Shown: in pieces, positions 4,867-12,360 of the stretch | Layout of the letters: each line of letters starts with the position of its first letter | How positions within the stretch are numbered: the stretch's first letter is position 1 | Program-made: the position numbers and the translations under genes | IMG/VR virus record: IMGVR_UViG_3300037847_001474 | Location: 1-35,643 of that record | Reading direction: 5' to 3' (one strand) | Length of the DNA: 35,643 bases | DNA from: a virus | Notes under the pieces: model-generated | What the model was told of the DNA's origin: nothing | The model's input: the letters and a program-made list of their open reading frames with translations, nothing else | The model's database searches: none

Positions 4867-5139
4867 TCAACCCACACATGCCATGGGCATATACTCAGAC
4901 TGAGGCATTTTGTCGGTGTTGTAGTCAGTTACCTCAGCACCCTTAGCAATACGCGAAGCAACCTCATGTTTGAAGTCAGTTGCACTAATAACGCTGTAGG
5001 ATTTCATACCATTAGCACGAAAAGTGACACGCTTAGTGAAACGTTTGATGACAACTTTCATGCCTTTCTTCTCACATGCCTCAGCAATAAATGCCTCAGG
5101 GAAGAAATCAACAATGGTGGCGGAGTTGGTGAGTTGCAT
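4867..5139 (-). CDS. Small protein, 90 aa
   Basis: The open frame reaches 5214, but a promoter lies inside that extension, so the start is set at ATG 5137-5139 (MQLTNSATIVDFFPEAF), with a purine-rich AAAGAGAGC just before it. The 90-aa product has a basic middle (KVVIKRFTKRVTFRANGMK), suggesting nucleic-acid contact, and a polar C-terminus. No family is recognised. Confidence 0.75.
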   Translation of the reverse strand: MQLTNSATIVDFFPEAFIAEACEKKGMKVVIKRFTKRVTFRANGMKSYSVISATDFKHEVASRIAKGAEVTDYNTDKMPQSEYMPMACVG

Positions 5140-5163
5140 TTGCTCTCTTTCTTTGACTCTTAT

Positions 5164-5192
5164 AGTATGGCACCGATCAGGGTGCTTTGCAA
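5164..5192 (-). promoter_or_regulatory. Early promoter TTGCAA-N17-CATACT
   Basis: On the minus strand TTGCAA (5187-5192) and CATACT (5164-5169) are separated by 17 bases. The transcribed leader CTATAAGAGTCAAAG is identical over 15 bases to that after the -10 at 7399-7404. A GTGCCAGTTTGG motif lies upstream, starting directly at the helicase stop codon. Confidence 0.7.
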
Positions 5193-5223
5193 GCGATAGT
5201 GGACACTTTACCAAACTGGCACA

Positions 5224-6468
5224 TCAGCAGTAGGCGAGAGGGGGGATACCCTCTAGAAAGATTTGATTAACAACGTTCTGCAATCTTGCTGCGATAGCAT
5301 TACCCATCTTGTAACCTGTTGGCATAGTAACAACACCTTCCTGCTTTTTATAGAGGTGAAATGCACCAGCAGGGATGCGACCTTCAGCAACAGCAGCGCG
5401 GTCATCTTTATGCACACGGATAACACGACCGATTGTCTGTGCCATCTCAACAATAGGCAGATTTCTGAGCAGAATAGTATGAGTCAACCCAGGCACATTG
5501 ATGCCCTCACTGAGAATAGAATAGTGAAAGATCACAAACTTACGATTGTCATCAGCACCCCAAGATTGCAGAGTGGTGAAGAACTCTTCACGACCAACTT
5601 TTTTGTCGTTGATGATAGCACCGAACTTAGAGGTGATGTGCATCACGTCATAACCTTTCTTGTAGAAATACTCAAGAATGTCAGTGTGTCCGAGCATGTT
5701 ACCCAGCACTTTGCTGGATGGTGCTGCAACCAGAACTTTAGGTTTCTGGAATACATCGAGTTGCTCAAACATATCCTTCAAGTTGTCAGCGTCAACCTCA
5801 TGTGCGTTGACTTTGTTACGAGTGCGATTTGTCTCGAAAGGAACAACACGAGGGGGAACAATTGCACCTGCTTCGATGAGTTCCTTAGCAGGAACATTGC
5901 AGAGCACGCCACCATAAACATCAGTATTGTTCATGCCGCGAGCAACACTCACACCACGACCAGTTTTAGGGGTTGCAGTGAAATAGTAACGACGCTTAGC
6001 ATACTGAGCAGTAGCAAAGACGCTAATAAAGAAATGCTTTCCGCATCCATTGTGTGCTTCATCAAAATAAATGGTGTCGATATCAATACCACTCTCAACA
6101 ACGCGGTGCAAAGAATGATAAGTTGTGAATATAATGCAGTTCTCACCTGCTGTTCGCGCAGTGTTATTGAACAGGGCGATCTTGTCTGCTTTTGTTGTGC
6201 TGAAGTGGTGTGTTTCACCGCTGTGAGCATGACAAACATGCACATCACGATGATGAATATGCTCCATGAATTCTTCGCAAAGTTGATTAGCGAGGAGGAT
6301 ACGCGGAGCGACTACAACAATAGTCTGGGGACCACAATCGCGCAGATGTTTGTAAGTATCAGCGATCATGATGTATGTCTTGCCACCACCAGTGGGAACA
6401 ATAATCTGACCAGCATTGTTGTTTTGCATTGCTGCAAATGCACGTTGTTGATGGGGGCGAAGTTGCAT
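5224..6468 (-). CDS. SF2 DNA/RNA helicase, UvsW-like
   Basis: The 414-aa product is a superfamily 2 helicase. Motif I is PTGGGKT (residues 25-31), motif II is DEAH (136-139), motif III is TATPK (~164), the SEGINVP segment is motif V (~320) and motif VI is QTIGRVIR (344-351). The Q-like tip RPHQQRA lies at the N-terminus. The closest T4 analogue by architecture is UvsW, which remodels recombination and replication-fork intermediates, although UvsW is longer (about 590 aa) with an extra N-terminal domain that is absent here. It is the first gene after promoter 6491-6519, with no clear Shine-Dalgarno. The long antisense frame over it is a coding shadow. Confidence 0.9.
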   Translation of the reverse strand: MQLRPHQQRAFAAMQNNNAGQIIVPTGGGKTYIMIADTYKHLRDCGPQTIVVVAPRILLANQLCEEFMEHIHHRDVHVCHAHSGETHHFSTTKADKIALFNNTARTAGENCIIFTTYHSLHRVVESGIDIDTIYFDEAHNGCGKHFFISVFATAQYAKRRYYFTATPKTGRGVSVARGMNNTDVYGGVLCNVPAKELIEAGAIVPPRVVPFETNRTRNKVNAHEVDADNLKDMFEQLDVFQKPKVLVAAPSSKVLGNMLGHTDILEYFYKKGYDVMHITSKFGAIINDKKVGREEFFTTLQSWGADDNRKFVIFHYSILSEGINVPGLTHTILLRNLPIVEMAQTIGRVIRVHKDDRAAVAEGRIPAGAFHLYKKQEGVVTMPTGYKMGNAIAARLQNVVNQIFLEGIPPLAYC

Positions 6469-6490
6469 GAATAACCTTGACTATGACTAT

Positions 6491-6519
6491 AGTATGACAC
6501 AAAAAAGGACCTCAGTCAA
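6491..6519 (-). promoter_or_regulatory. Early promoter TTGACT-N17-CATACT for the helicase
   Basis: On the minus strand TTGACT (6514-6519) and CATACT (6491-6496) lie 17 bases apart. The -35 hexamer is exactly the loop of the terminator hairpin at 6501-6526, and the T-run lies in the spacer. The leader TCATAGTCAAG is shared with promoter 8889-8917. A CCAGT/ACTGG dyad lies upstream at 6530-6545. Confidence 0.75.
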
Positions 6520-6526
6520 GAGGTCC
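6501..6526 (-). terminator. Intrinsic terminator overlapping the helicase promoter
   Basis: The minus strand reads GGACCTC, loop TTGACT, GAGGTCC, then six T: a perfect 7-bp GC-rich stem followed by a U-tract. It should end transcripts of the 77-aa gene and its upstream neighbours. It overlaps the next promoter, whose -35 forms the loop. Confidence 0.85.
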
Positions 6527-6529
6527 AGA

Positions 6530-6545
6530 CCAGTTTATCGACTGG
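6530..6545. repeat. CCAGT/ACTGG dyad
   Basis: CCAGT (6530-6534) and ACTGG (6541-6545) form an inverted repeat with a 6-base loop, directly upstream of the terminator/promoter unit. GTGCCAGT on the minus strand is the same core seen at 5215-5222 and 8938-8946. Confidence 0.5.
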
Positions 6546-6553
6546 CACACACA

Positions 6554-6787
6554 TCAAATCTCTTCTTCTTCGCGTGTAAGATCTTCGATGAAAATAAACT
6601 CAAAATCATCATCTTCAGGGTCTTTACCATCAACAACCCACTCTTCAAATACAGAGATAGCATCCCAATTTCGACCAGTATTAGCGCACTCGTTCATAGC
6701 GTCCCAATAAGTGTCACGCATAGTGTCAACACAATGCTGTTTGTCATCGGTGTGATCACAAAAAAGATCAAGAGTGGAGTCGTTCAT
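6554..6787 (-). CDS. Small acidic protein, 77 aa
   Basis: Encodes 77 aa, strongly acidic (DGKDPEDDDFEFIFIEDL, ending EEEEI), with two Cys near the N-terminus (FCDHTDDKQHC). The start is 2 bases after the 71-aa gene. Acidic small early phage proteins often mimic DNA or bind host proteins, but nothing here proves that. The gene ends just before a terminator. Confidence 0.75.
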   Translation of the reverse strand: MNDSTLDLFCDHTDDKQHCVDTMRDTYWDAMNECANTGRNWDAISVFEEWVVDGKDPEDDDFEFIFIEDLTREEEEI

Positions 6788-6789
6788 TG

Positions 6790-7005
6790 TTATTCAGAGA
6801 GAGGTGATTCGCGTTTGCAGATGTTATTTTTACCGCTCAATACATCATCAACATATGCACTTGAGCGAGGTTTCATATATTCTTCAATTTCTTTTAGTTC
6901 ATCTGGACTCATTGAATAAGACAAACCCAGATCTTCATTGAACCAAAAGTCCTCCCAATCTTCAGGAGAGTCAGTTACATCTTCGATGTTCTTTTTATCA
7001 GTCAT
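6790..7005 (-). CDS. Small acidic protein, 71 aa
   Basis: Encodes 71 aa, acidic with aromatics (SPEDWEDFWFNEDLGLSYSM; DELKEIEEYMKPRS) and a basic C-terminus (KNNICKRESPLSE). It overlaps the 63-aa gene by 8 bases, indicating coupled translation. No domain is recognised. Two consecutive acidic proteins here may act together, which is speculation. Confidence 0.75.
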   Translation of the reverse strand: MTDKKNIEDVTDSPEDWEDFWFNEDLGLSYSMSPDELKEIEEYMKPRSSAYVDDVLSGKNNICKRESPLSE

Positions 7006-7189
7006 TCAGTGCTTCAACCTCGTAACGAATTTGGTTTGGATATGTTTTTTGTGCCCATTTTAGCACTCGATTGTTTTGTGCTTTGATGCCCTTATGTGAC
7101 GTTGGTTTGGTAGGCATTGTCCGAGAGACTTGCATCATCGTGAACTGATCATAGATCCGAACGAGATACGTTTGAGTGTTACTTTTCAT
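6998..7189 (-). CDS. Small basic protein, 63 aa
   Basis: Encodes 63 aa rich in Lys, Arg and Thr (TMPTKPTSHKGIKAQNNRVL; WAQKTYPNQIRYEVEAL). The N-terminal strand (QTYLVRIYDQFTMM) and basic middle suggest nucleic-acid or ribosome contact. It lies 6 bases after the 59-aa gene. No family assigned. Confidence 0.75.
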   Translation of the reverse strand: MKSNTQTYLVRIYDQFTMMQVSRTMPTKPTSHKGIKAQNNRVLKWAQKTYPNQIRYEVEALND

Positions 7190-7195
7190 TGTTAA

Positions 7196-7375
7196 TCAAC
7201 CTCCGAAGTTGTCATCCATGAATGCAGAATCCTGACCAAACATTTCCTCGAAGAGGTTCAGGTTGCCAGTGATTGTGGCGCACTCTTTAACATTTTCGAT
7301 GAACTCATCGGTGTTAGTTTGAGGGAGAAGATTGGTGGTGCTGTGCATTTTGCCGTTGCGATCTTTCCAGAGCAT
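7196..7375 (-). CDS. Small protein, 59 aa
   Basis: ATG 7373-7375 to TGA 7196-7198 encodes 59 aa (MLWKDRNGKMHSTTNLLP..., then an acidic helix EFIENVKECA and FEEMFGQDSAFMDDNFGG). It is the first gene after promoter 7399-7426, with a 20-base leader. It is likely cytosolic and of unknown function. Confidence 0.7.
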   Translation of the reverse strand: MLWKDRNGKMHSTTNLLPQTNTDEFIENVKECATITGNLNLFEEMFGQDSAFMDDNFGG

Positions 7376-7398
7376 GTGTGTGTTCCTTTGACTCTTAT

Positions 7399-7426
7399 AG
7401 AATACACCATTTTGAGGCGTCTACAA
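7399..7426 (-). promoter_or_regulatory. Early promoter TTGTAG-N16-TATTCT
   Basis: On the minus strand TTGTAG (7421-7426) and TATTCT (7399-7404) are separated by 16 bases. The following CTATAAGAGTCAAAG is shared exactly with promoter 5164-5192. The 28-base repeat copy 2 (7431-7458) lies directly upstream. Confidence 0.6.
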
Positions 7427-7430
7427 GCGT

Positions 7431-7458
7431 CTGTGTGCCACCTTGTCGGGCGTCACAT
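7431..7458. repeat. 28-base direct repeat, copy 2 (see 3517-3544)
   Basis: It matches 3517-3544 at 24 of 28 bases. It overlaps the TGA stop (7453-7455) of the 96-aa gene, as copy 1 overlaps the stop of the 59-aa gene. Confidence 0.65.
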
Positions 7459-7743
7459 CCAAAGTGACTCTAATCCCCTACGATTGATCTGCATCGCTGT
7501 TAGCGGGCGTGTAGAGTTGATGTCAACAACTGCACCGATTTTCTTGGCATTGATTGGTGCATAGTATTCTCGTTTTTTTGTGTTGTAAAACCCCCAGATG
7601 GTGCTAACTTGATCGCCACCATTGAAACAATAACTGTTAAGATGGTCACACCAAATGCCAATAACATTTGCTCTAAACTGGGTGGTTCTGTATCTAAATC
7701 CTGCGGGTGCTTCATGAATAAAATCAGGGGGAAGTTCAATCAT
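7453..7743 (-). CDS. Conserved-type small protein, 96 aa
   Basis: Encodes 96 aa, beta-rich with many aromatics (AGFRYRTTQFRANVIGIWCD; STIWGFYNTKKREYYAPIN) and a basic C-terminal part. It looks like a small globular domain and could bind nucleic acid. It is coupled by ATGA to the 84-aa gene. No motif is recognised. Confidence 0.75.
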   Translation of the reverse strand: MIELPPDFIHEAPAGFRYRTTQFRANVIGIWCDHLNSYCFNGGDQVSTIWGFYNTKKREYYAPINAKKIGAVVDINSTRPLTAMQINRRGLESLWM

Positions 7744-7994
7744 AGTTTACCACCAACGATGGCAGATCCTACCACACGGGTGTAATCTTCAAGTGTGCCT
7801 TCTTGTTCACACTTAAGGTGCCAATGTGTCATGGTGATAACACCCTCACGAGTGCCACCAGTTAACATGTTGCGACCTTCTTTAGTCATCGTTGAGTATA
7901 GTCCAAACCGAGTTTTCCAAACATAAAAAACATCATCAATGAGTTCAGCATTTTCAGGGATTGTGATTTCAGGATGGAGTTTAGTTTCAGTCAT
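7740..7994 (-). CDS. Small protein, 84 aa
   Basis: Encodes 84 aa with two beta-like segments (IDDVFYVWKTRFGLYSTM; REGVITMTHWHLKCEQEG). The start and stop overlap both neighbours by 4 bases (ATGA). It belongs to a tightly coupled chain of small genes from 8864 to 7453 that all read from promoter 8889-8917. Function unknown. Confidence 0.75.
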   Translation of the reverse strand: MTETKLHPEITIPENAELIDDVFYVWKTRFGLYSTMTKEGRNMLTGGTREGVITMTHWHLKCEQEGTLEDYTRVVGSAIVGGKL

Positions 7995-8146
7995 TTACGT
8001 TTCTTGATTGCTCTTACTATTTTACGTTGAATCTCTTTATGTGAGATATTGGAGAACAATAGTTGTTCACCTTGTGCCTGCGTGAAAGAATTAACGCGAC
8101 ACATAATATAGTCGAGATACCTCAACTCTTCTTGTCGTAATTTCAT
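7991..8146 (-). CDS. Small basic protein, 51 aa
   Basis: ATG 8144-8146 to TGA 7991-7993 encodes 51 aa. It is highly basic and helical (MKLRQEELRYLDYIMCR...; KEIQRKIVRAIKKRK) and likely binds nucleic acid or an acidic partner. It overlaps the 56-aa gene and the 84-aa gene by 4 bases each. Confidence 0.7.
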   Translation of the reverse strand: MKLRQEELRYLDYIMCRVNSFTQAQGEQLLFSNISHKEIQRKIVRAIKKRK

Positions 8147-8313
8147 CCGAAAATGTGTGTCCACGAGTGATGTTGTGCCTTAGTGATTCTACCATCATCA
8201 AGTAATCCATCAACAACGCGACAGAAAACCTGAAACTTTTCCTCTCGGGTGAGATTGGGATCGACACGCATTGCGGTCTCACCAATAACTTTGACGACGT
8301 TTTTCTTGAGCAT
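8143..8313 (-). CDS. Small protein, 56 aa
   Basis: The frame stays open to 8349, but ATG 8311-8313 lies one base after the TAA of the 46-aa gene and avoids a 35-base overlap, so I use that start. The product has 56 aa and is helical (KNVVKVIGETAMRVDPNLTR; FQVFCRVVDGLLDDGRI). It is coupled to the downstream 51-aa gene by overlap. No known domain. Confidence 0.7.
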   Translation of the reverse strand: MLKKNVVKVIGETAMRVDPNLTREEKFQVFCRVVDGLLDDGRITKAQHHSWTHIFG

Positions 8314-8314
8314 T

Positions 8315-8455
8315 TTACTGAGCGAGATTCCAGAAACGTTGTGAAGCAATTGTTGCCTGTTGTTCGATAGTCAAGTCAGGATATTCTTCCTGAACTTGTT
8401 CAAAGAGATTTTCCATAATCTCTGTATTTGTGTCACATGACATAAGTTTCTCCAT
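8315..8455 (-). CDS. Small protein, 46 aa
   Basis: ATG 8453-8455 to TAA 8315-8317 encodes 46 aa (MEKLMSCDTNTEIMENL..., ending ASQRFWNLAQ). The ATG overlaps the TGA of copy B of the MTYQQ family (TGATG), supporting this start over the internal ATG four codons later. It is an acidic, amphipathic helical protein of unknown function. Confidence 0.65.
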   Translation of the reverse strand: MEKLMSCDTNTEIMENLFEQVQEEYPDLTIEQQATIASQRFWNLAQ

Positions 8456-8673
8456 CAGAATGTAATAACGAAATGGTTAGAGTCTAGAACTTGATCTTCT
8501 TCATCAGTAAAATCACCGCTGTACACAGGAACAAACTCATCATCTTTGATTGAATACAAAGTTGCAGTTTGATTGAGTTGTTGAGGTGATAGTGCTTGAA
8601 GTTGTTCCAGCAGTTGTTGATAGGTCATTTTTTTATGAGTTAATTGTGACCATGGAATGAGACCCCATGACAT
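8455..8673 (-). CDS. MTYQQLLEQL-family small protein, copy B (72 aa)
   Basis: Encodes 72 aa. The start ATG overlaps the TAA of the 63-aa gene (TAATG), so the leader MSWGLIPWSQ is real protein. MTYQQLLEQLQ and an acidic beta-like half follow. It is a paralogue of 2719-2946 with the same order of parts. The C-terminal halves differ much more than the helical core. The role is unknown. Confidence 0.75.
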   Translation of the reverse strand: MSWGLIPWSQLTHKKMTYQQLLEQLQALSPQQLNQTATLYSIKDDEFVPVYSGDFTDEEDQVLDSNHFVITF

Positions 8674-8864
8674 TAGAAAGGGTTGCTCCAGTTTTCGTAC
8701 TGCTTGAGACTAATCTCACCACACTTGCAAAGCATATCAGTGAAGTCACCGAACGCAATACGCTTGGCGATCTTGTCAGTTTTGAGTGAAGGATTTTCAA
8801 GAGTTGCTACCTTCCAGTTGTAACGGAATTGCTCAACAACTTGTGCTTTGGTGTAATGACGCAT
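8673..8864 (-). CDS. Small protein, 63 aa
   Basis: The longer frame to 8948 crosses the promoter, so the start is placed at ATG 8862-8864 (MRHYTKAQVVEQFRYNW). The product has 63 aa, helical and basic, with Cys at DMLCKCGE. It is the first gene of the 8864-7453 chain, with a leader of about 25 bases from the -10. No family is recognised. Confidence 0.75.
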   Translation of the reverse strand: MRHYTKAQVVEQFRYNWKVATLENPSLKTDKIAKRIAFGDFTDMLCKCGEISLKQYENWSNPF

Positions 8865-8888
8865 GTCTGATTGCTTGACTATGAATAT

Positions 8889-8917
8889 AGTATGACAGGT
8901 TCCCAGGCAAAAGTCAA
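8889..8917 (-). promoter_or_regulatory. Early promoter TTGACT-N17-CATACT
   Basis: On the minus strand TTGACT (8912-8917), 17 bases, CATACT (8889-8894). The TGA stop of the cysteine-cluster gene (8914-8916) is inside the -35 hexamer. Upstream is a perfect GCCAGTT/AACTGGC dyad (8927-8944) that lies within the end of that gene. Confidence 0.8.
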
Positions 8918-9423
8918 GAGGTTTGCGCCAGTTCTGCAACTGGCACATTGCTCACGATCTCTCCACCATTTTTTTCTACATGATGTTTAATCCATTTTTC
9001 ATCGCCTAAGTGAAACCAACTGCCATTACATTCATATTCAATGTTCATGCCATGTTCCATACTCAAACGTAACACATAGTTCAAAATATCTGACCGAACT
9101 GGATTGTTACATTCGCGCATAGTTATGTAACCAACTAGTTCACCATCTATCTCATCTTCACCAAATGCCATAATAACATCTGATTTATTAGGTTTCATCC
9201 ACTCTGGAAGAGTTGGTGTAATTTTCCAGAGACATTGATACTCTTGACATAATGTCGGACGTTGGTCGTAGATAGTACATCCACCGCCCTCACATTCACC
9301 AAGAAAATGACAGGGACGACCCTTGAACATTTGAATTCCGTGAATGTTTGCGTTCAAATGTCCTTGACAACATGCAGTGCAATCACCACACTCACGCTTC
9401 ATTTCAATTCGGTCAAGTGTCAT
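8914..9423 (-). CDS. YkgJ-type cysteine-cluster protein
   Basis: The 169-aa product opens with CGDCTACC (Cys12, 15, 18, 19), then C38, C44, C49, C59 and C64 with the signature 'YDQRPTLCQEYQC'. This is the pattern of the YkgJ/UPF0153 zinc- or iron-chelating cluster family, found in many bacteria and phages with no firm biochemical role. The C-terminal 80 residues show no known motif. The ATG overlaps the Dam stop (ATGA), so it is the third gene of a Dam-containing operon. Its last 15 codons contain the promoter dyad and the -35 of the next operon. Confidence 0.75.
   Translation of the reverse strand: MTLDRIEMKRECGDCTACCQGHLNANIHGIQMFKGRPCHFLGECEGGGCTIYDQRPTLCQEYQCLWKITPTLPEWMKPNKSDVIMAFGEDEIDGELVGYITMRECNNPVRSDILNYVLRLSMEHGMNIEYECNGSWFHLGDEKWIKHHVEKNGGEIVSNVPVAELAQTS
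8927..8944. repeat. Perfect GCCAGTT/AACTGGC dyad
   Basis: GCCAGTT (8927-8933) and AACTGGC (8938-8944) flank a 4-base loop, 10 bases upstream of the -35 at 8912-8917. It is the best-formed member of the CCAGTT-type dyads near early promoters. It is also coding (VPVAELA). Confidence 0.55.
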
Positions 9424-10337
9424 CGCTTAATAATTAGAATTTCATGGGACTTTTTAGGGTCATTGTTCTCTTTGTTCTTGCCAACACGAGTCTCACCCAG
9501 AGAGTATGAATAGTGCCATTCAGGATATACAAACTCATACTCAGAATACCACTCACGAATAGTTTCGCAGTTGTTGTAACTGAGAACAAACGGACCCTCG
9601 TGACGTGATAACATCATCGCCATATATTCATGGTCAAAGTTGTTGTGATAGATGGGGAAGTTTGCGTTGGGATACATCCCTTTGAACATCTTGTTATCTG
9701 CATCTTTCTCCAAATAATATGGAGGGTCGAGATACAAGAAGTCTTTTTTGTGATATGGAATAGTATCAATCATATTACCAATCTGAACATTCAAATTAGG
9801 ATTGACATACTTCTCCAATCTATCAATCATACGATCCCACTTTTCACGCGATTCATAGATCTTACTCATCCAACCGAGATACATCGGACCATAAGAAAGG
9901 TTATGGTTATAGAAGAAATAAGCAGCAGCATCTTTGTGGCACAATGTGATCATCTCTTCATCTGGTACACGATAATATGCCCAGCGATCTTTCTCATCCC
10001 TATCCATTGGAGCGGGGAACATCATCTGGGTGATGCACCACTTCATCAATTCATCTTTGACTTGTTTATATTCATCTTTAGTTGGTTCCAGATACCTACA
10101 ACGTGCAACCAAATCCTCACGATAATCTAGAAGAATGTTCCAGAAAATGACAAGGGGATGAAGTACATCATACCCCTGCACAGGAATATCTAACTCAGAA
10201 CTCCAGCGAGATTCTAGACTACCACCACCAATAAATGGTGAGACAATCTTACCCGTAGGAAGATGCTCAGGTAGATATTCAGTAATGATTTTATATGCTT
10301 TGGATTTACCACCAGCATATCGCAATGGAGTTTTCAT
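9420..10337 (-). CDS. dam: DNA adenine methylase, D12 (Dam) class
   Basis: The 305-aa protein has the D12-class order. RYAGGKSK (residues 6-13) and PFIGGGSLE (33-41) form the AdoMet-binding part, a variable helical target-recognition region follows, and DPPYY (204-208) is the catalytic motif for N6-adenine methylation. The size fits family members (about 260-310 aa). The recognition site cannot be read from sequence, though GATC is usual for Dam-like phage enzymes. It overlaps both neighbours by 4 bases: a possible nuclease upstream and the cysteine-cluster gene downstream. Likely roles are protection from restriction or marking of phage DNA. Confidence 0.9.
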   Translation of the reverse strand: MKTPLRYAGGKSKAYKIITEYLPEHLPTGKIVSPFIGGGSLESRWSSELDIPVQGYDVLHPLVIFWNILLDYREDLVARCRYLEPTKDEYKQVKDELMKWCITQMMFPAPMDRDEKDRWAYYRVPDEEMITLCHKDAAAYFFYNHNLSYGPMYLGWMSKIYESREKWDRMIDRLEKYVNPNLNVQIGNMIDTIPYHKKDFLYLDPPYYLEKDADNKMFKGMYPNANFPIYHNNFDHEYMAMMLSRHEGPFVLSYNNCETIREWYSEYEFVYPEWHYSYSLGETRVGKNKENNDPKKSHEILIIKR

Positions 10338-12325: not shown

Positions 12326-12331
12326 AGTATA
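12326..12331 (-). promoter_or_regulatory. Extended -10 promoter just after the terminator
   Basis: The minus strand reads TGCTATACT: -10 TATACT (12326-12331) with a TGn extension, 3 bases past the T-run of the terminator. It drives the 69-aa gene and the chain down to 11210. As at 6491-6526, terminator and promoter are fused in one short unit. Confidence 0.65.
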
Positions 12332-12333
12332 GC

Positions 12334-12360
12334 ACAAAAAAAGGGGGTGCGAGACCCCCT
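12334..12360 (-). terminator. Strong intrinsic terminator ending the structural module
   Basis: The minus strand reads AGGGGG, a 7-base loop, CCCCCT and a run of seven T. It lies 11 bases after the stop of the 2OG oxygenase gene at 12372. It separates late-type structural genes from the early small-gene region. Confidence 0.9.

Follow-up and report, generated by a model that had tools for sequence, protein, structure and literature searches.

The window analysed here comprises positions 1 to 35,643 of the IMG/VR virus record IMGVR_UViG_3300037847_001474, 35,643 nucleotides in all. At the level of sequence, the window is a fragment of a T4-like cyanophage. A blastn search with positions 5000-9500 matched 380 phage records, all of them Synechococcus, Cyanophage or Prochlorococcus phages, and the best match, S-CAM22, belongs to the Kyanoviridae. 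Between the gene for a 77-aa protein and the gene for a DNA helicase, the minus strand reads GGACCTC TTGACT GAGGTCC TTTTTT GTGT CATACT from 6526 to 6491, the first twenty of these bases forming a hairpin (Table 1). The stop codon of the 77-aa gene lies 27 nt ahead of the hairpin, as expected for that gene's terminator. No promoter or terminator feature is annotated in the GenBank helicase regions of S-CAM22 and Syn19, and a similarity search with a short non-coding stretch returned no matches.

Table 1. Features at and around the element, in window coordinates.
Feature	Position	Strand	Basis or remark
Gene for DNA helicase, 414 aa, phrog_16 (downstream)	5224..6468	-	ATG at 6468
Gene for 77-aa protein, phrog_710 (upstream)	6554..6787	-	ends at 6554
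Palindrome CCAGT-N6-ACTGG, operator-like	6530..6545	-	conserved in this promoter class
Terminator stem, 5' arm GGACCTC	6520..6526	-	sequence; covariation in relatives
Hairpin loop TTGACT, candidate -35 box of helicase promoter	6514..6519	-	TTGAC in 30/30 distinct elements, motif-selected
Terminator stem, 3' arm GAGGTCC, which also opens the 17-nt spacer of the promoter (7 nt)	6507..6513	-	sequence; covariation
T6 tract; RNA 3' end predicted at 6501 or close to it	6501..6506	-	T tract retained in relatives
Extended -10, TG-T-CATACT (CATACT 6496-6491)	6491..6499	-	A-T-A-N-T in all relatives, as a selection criterion; most also have TG
Predicted transcription start, 7 nt past the -10	6484..6484	-	inferred from spacing only
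Sister promoter TTGACT-N17-CATACT, without terminator	8889..8917	-	shares the upstream palindrome (8943-8928) and the start region
Third promoter of the class, TTGCAA-N17-CATACT	5164..5192	-	GCACC/GGTGC inverted repeat in spacer, no T tract
Second fusion: terminator AGGGGGT(ctcgc)ACCCCCT, T7, into extended -10 TGC-TATACT	12326..12360	-	no -35 match in loop

The hairpin (6526-6507) has a perfect 7-bp stem with 5 G-C pairs and a predicted energy of -12.4 kcal/mol (RNAfold), and the 71-nt region around the element has a folding z of -3.6. Intrinsic terminators have a G+C-rich stem of at least 5 pairs with an immediate T tract on one strand, and all of these are present here in the form of 7 pairs, 5 of them G-C, and T6. 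The loop matches the -35 consensus at 5 of 6 positions. The first-pass annotation had described the perfect GGACCTC/GAGGTCC stem and six-T tract enclosing TTGACT, which can be read directly on the minus strand, and had placed TTGACT exactly 17 bases from CATACT, which agrees with the 17-nt spacer we find at 6513-6497. Absent from that annotation is the TG at 6499-6498, which makes the -10 of the helicase promoter an extended one. CATACT is itself a modest -10, the promoter as a whole has 9/12 matches, and promoter-like sites across the window are no more frequent than in shuffled sequence. We defined a strict element as a stem of at least 6 bp with at least 4 G-C pairs, T[TC]GAC in the loop, at least 5 T in 8, and a -10 at 16-18 nt; the window contains one, vs none in 400 dinucleotide-preserving shuffles of the window. 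An Rfam search of the window returned tRNAs alone at or above the gathering score, and no family matched the element.

Our preferred reading, to which we give a probability of roughly 0.85, is that the element is a nested promoter-terminator cassette. In the RNA of the upstream gene, GGACCUC-UUGACU-GAGGUCC-U6 would act as an intrinsic terminator. In duplex DNA a sigma-70 promoter for the helicase would have the loop TTGACT as its -35 box and an extended -10 right behind the T tract, and its 17-nt spacer would be occupied by the 3' arm and the T tract. One early transcription unit would be ended and the next, the helicase message, begun within about 36 bp. We infer from these signals that termination and initiation both occur at the element, presumably by host RNA polymerase, in an arrangement that would give insulation and restart in minimal space. 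As a by-product, an elongating or terminating polymerase would occupy the promoter that it has just reached.

Ahead of helicase homologues in viral contigs, stems as different as AGACCCC/GGGGTCT, ACCCACC/GGTGGGT, GGGATCC/GGATCCC and AACCCCC/GGGGGTT surround a TTGAC loop that stays the same. All 30 distinct elements collected from helicase and other loci of these contigs have TTGAC and a spacing of 17, both of which were selection criteria, and the T tract is close to invariant. When 25 sequences were aligned, 92% of the stem cells were paired (66.7% after shuffling) and 42 cells showed double changes (12.9 after shuffling). The covariation score was 0.676 vs 0.206 for shuffled stems, with 0/500 shuffles as high, and it dropped sharply when the 3' arm was slid by 1-3 nt. 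The 25 sequences were picked by promoter geometry, with good hairpins preferred, so the invariance of loop and spacing in this alignment is a result of selection; the compensatory changes are less affected, and the free-arm scan below is without that bias. Redundancy and pattern selection also inflate the apparent conservation of the loop, and the free-arm scan and its controls address both. By this comparison of sequences, the hairpin and the promoter geometry are shown to be both conserved. Evolution evidently preserves the two signals together, in that the stem letters change in matched pairs and the start-signal letters in the loop stay fixed.

We sorted 58 helicase loci by set criteria: in 24 the promoter is nested, in 12 a terminator leads into a -10 with no TTGAC loop in register, and 22 have no terminator. 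Several of the 12 out-of-register loci look nested on inspection, with TCGACA or a straddling TTGACA. Given the 22/58 helicase loci without one, the terminator is dispensable. The helicase tree implies about 12 switches of the nested state, and supported branches force at least 5 of these, with bootstrap values not fully settled.

Scanning viral contigs (which are fragments, with hosts inferred) with a pattern that fixed two bases of the 3' arm returned 100 stretches, and 86/104 matches had a hairpin of at least 6 bp, a count biased by the fixed GG in that arm. We therefore relied on a free-arm pattern, TTGACA-N7-T6-N4-TATAAT. Among the matches listed from viral contigs, a hairpin was present at 61/112 distinct sites vs 2.6 with the flank shuffled, and 58 of these 61 hairpins had at least 2 nt of the -35 inside the loop. 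Among the matches listed from bacterial genomes it was present at 7/120 (1.1 shuffled). The intact pattern occurred in at least 120 viral stretches, vs 20 when the spacing was altered to 21 and 17 when the -35 was reversed, and these two controls had hairpins at 0/14 and 1/14 sites, respectively. Since the association with hairpins collapses with the wrong spacing or a reversed -35, it needs a functional promoter. A further form, seen in contigs L398, L373, L383, L390, L395, L396 and L410, encloses an inner hairpin (CTGG...CCAG) in an outer stem and places TTGACA at the junction with the 3' arm; the hairpin criterion misses this form, so 61/112 is an underestimate. In contigs L091 and L160, TTGAC lies in the larger loop of a terminator-like hairpin after an apparent tRNA 3' end.

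The contigs that carry the pattern include S-CAM1- and S-SM2-type cyanophages, a relative of Pelagibacter T4-like phages, and one contig with a jumbo-phage-like ClpA. A second recurring context, at S-SM2 167141 and S-CAM1 105101, is upstream of hli, a gene annotated in both genomes. Ten distinct elements from this context, most of which entered the set through the TTGACA scan, retain TTGAC and the 17-nt spacing, and their stems covary, with 86% paired vs 55% shuffled. Nested elements upstream of hli were seen in S-SM2 and S-CAM1 themselves (L568, L569), and in contig L406 (~3484) one directly follows a pstS-like gene. All complete Synechococcus phage genomes examined (7/7) have 1-3 nested elements each. 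Pelagibacter phage HTVC008M has one pattern match and no nested element by the set criteria. From its distribution over these genomes and contigs, the nested element is a recurring cassette of marine cyanophages, found also in some other phages, and not a one-off. The proposal in the first-pass annotation that the terminator's loop is the -35 box of the next promoter is thus supported by the compensatory stems, the recurrence at unrelated loci and the collapse of the controls, all of which are comparative evidence. In vivo, RNA would end and start at these bases, and read-through and initiating polymerase may compete there, as the annotation suggested.

That annotation had also pointed to a similar fusion of a terminator with an extended -10 at 12326-12360. 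This fusion is real, with an AGGGGGT/ACCCCCT stem and TGC-TATACT, and its loop is without a -35, the -35 position reading TCTCGC. Two relatives have an apparent counterpart of this locus (homology by appearance, from the shared downstream ATGCCTCA start), with TTGCAC or TTGCGA in the -35 position. In S-CAM22 (L186, G001) at ~147538, a terminator has a T tract that leads into a late promoter of the T4 type (ATAAATA), and other genomes are alike, with 2-4 such fusions per complete genome, T4 and RB49 included.

Plain members of the helicase promoter class can have GCACC...GGTGC inside the spacer between -35 and -10 with no T tract, as at 5192-5164 of the window and ~38689 of contig L189 (G009). 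Upstream of the -35, always equally far from it, nested and plain cyanophage promoters of the class also have a palindrome of degenerate sequence, tGtGaCAgT-N5-aAcTGg; in the window it is found at 6545-6530, 8943-8928 and ~5220-5200. We rejected this palindrome as an RNA stem because relatives, by inspection, break the pairing yet retain the half-sites. Half-sites that are conserved and do not covary resemble a DNA operator, and the palindrome looks like a putative one. The inverted repeat CTTGACT/AGTCAAG (6520-6514 and 6482-6476) was likewise rejected as a paired structure, since AGTCAAG is unchanged when the -35 of relatives becomes TTGACA, and we read AGTCAAG as a conserved start region.

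The presence of that upstream palindrome in the promoter class raises the question of whether the inverted repeat around the -35 is also a DNA operator for a regulator, with its terminator-like features incidental. Operators classically sit as inverted repeats over -35 boxes. An operator would conserve its letters, whereas here the stem letters vary freely while the pairing holds, and the T tract is on one side only, with the terminator just after a stop codon. Because the stem covaries instead of conserving letters, we rejected the hairpin as an operator and consider this reading highly improbable. A terminator and a promoter might instead have collided once, by compaction or recombination, and relatives might have inherited the overlap with no selection acting on it. 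The density of phage genomes and the common ancestry of many helicase loci would both suit such an accident; set against it are the complete turnover of the stem while both functions persist, the reappearance of the arrangement at unrelated loci and in further groups of phages, where the stems differ, and the repeated gain or loss of the nested label on the helicase tree. We think a single collision improbable, less so than an operator.

The nested cassette could also work as a relay, in which the polymerase, after RNA release at the T tract, remains bound to the DNA with sigma kept or regained and re-initiates there, so that one polymerase is handed between early units. This would extend the nested-cassette explanation and does not contradict it. 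The polymerase of E. coli usually remains on DNA after intrinsic termination and can re-initiate nearby, and single-molecule work leads to the expectation that the efficiency of re-initiation depends on the distance between terminator and promoter (PMC6978380, PMC11347151). That distance is zero here, and nesting is frequent in these phages and seldom seen at the bacterial sites that match the pattern. Against it, such a relay is not known from living cells in any system, sigma may be lost during elongation, and compact packing explains the geometry without recycling; PMC11347151 also argues that lytic phages would gain little, though the argument concerns phages with their own polymerase. Recycling of polymerase at the element is possible, and we regard the relay as unlikely, if less so than either a collision or an operator. 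We are just as doubtful of its evolutionary counterpart, that phages repeatedly evolved a nested terminate-and-restart element that passes on the same RNA polymerase at zero distance, with the loop as the next -35.

If the nested cassette is correct, the same bases would carry one signal as RNA structure and another as duplex DNA, both kept by selection during sequence turnover. The element would be a compact natural insulator-promoter part, and a natural test case for whether recycling of polymerase after intrinsic termination matters in living cells. In addition, separate promoter and terminator callers can miss or misplace cyanophage start sites, also at photosynthesis genes like hli.

Sigma-70 promoters of cyanophage early genes have been predicted in S-PM2 and Syn9 (PMC2984593) and by BPROM (PMC3037559), and the available portions of these two sources do not describe an overlap of promoter and terminator. 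The element resembles cyanophage early promoters in having TTGAC-N17-nATACT/TATAAT, often with TG before the -10, and differs in that its spacer is the 3' arm and T tract of a terminator. It shares with ordinary intrinsic terminators a G+C-rich perfect stem, a short loop, a one-sided T run and a position directly after a stop codon. Unlike them, it has a fixed TTGAC loop instead of a stabilising tetraloop (TTCG, GAAA), and both of these tetraloops are present among the other terminators of these genomes. A limited literature search found no description of the nested geometry.

The closest known systems are the PeSLs (promoter-early stem-loops), which were reportedly described by Arbiol et al. 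2010 and Comeau et al. in the T4-like phages RB49, phi1, PST and nt-1. A PeSL is said to combine a sigma-70 promoter with a stem-loop terminator in a short cassette that lies between early genes, to differ in state between close relatives, and to be a place where related phages shuffle modules. Our element has a sigma-70-like promoter, TTGACT-N17 (ending TGT)-CATACT with a geometry shared by relatives, and a predicted terminator stem-loop, whose sequence and covariation fit an intrinsic terminator. Its state too varies between close relatives, with the roughly 12 switches on the helicase tree. S-PM2 is without the PeSL density of other T4-like phages (PMC4503421). The difference lies in the order of the parts. 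Of the RB49 and T4 terminators that have a strong sigma-70 promoter no more than 110 nt further on, 18/19 are followed by a -35 that begins 12-32 nt past the stem, a tandem order, and in the sole exception (RB49 53609) the -35 is in the 3' arm; about 139 terminators of RB49, T4 and KVP40 included no nested element. Here the -35 is in the loop, and the distance from stem end to -35 start is -13 to -15 nt. Given that the order is tandem in RB49 and T4 and nested in Synechococcus phages, the nested geometry is a variant of a known cassette, a compact form of the composite promoter-terminator cassettes of T4-like phages.
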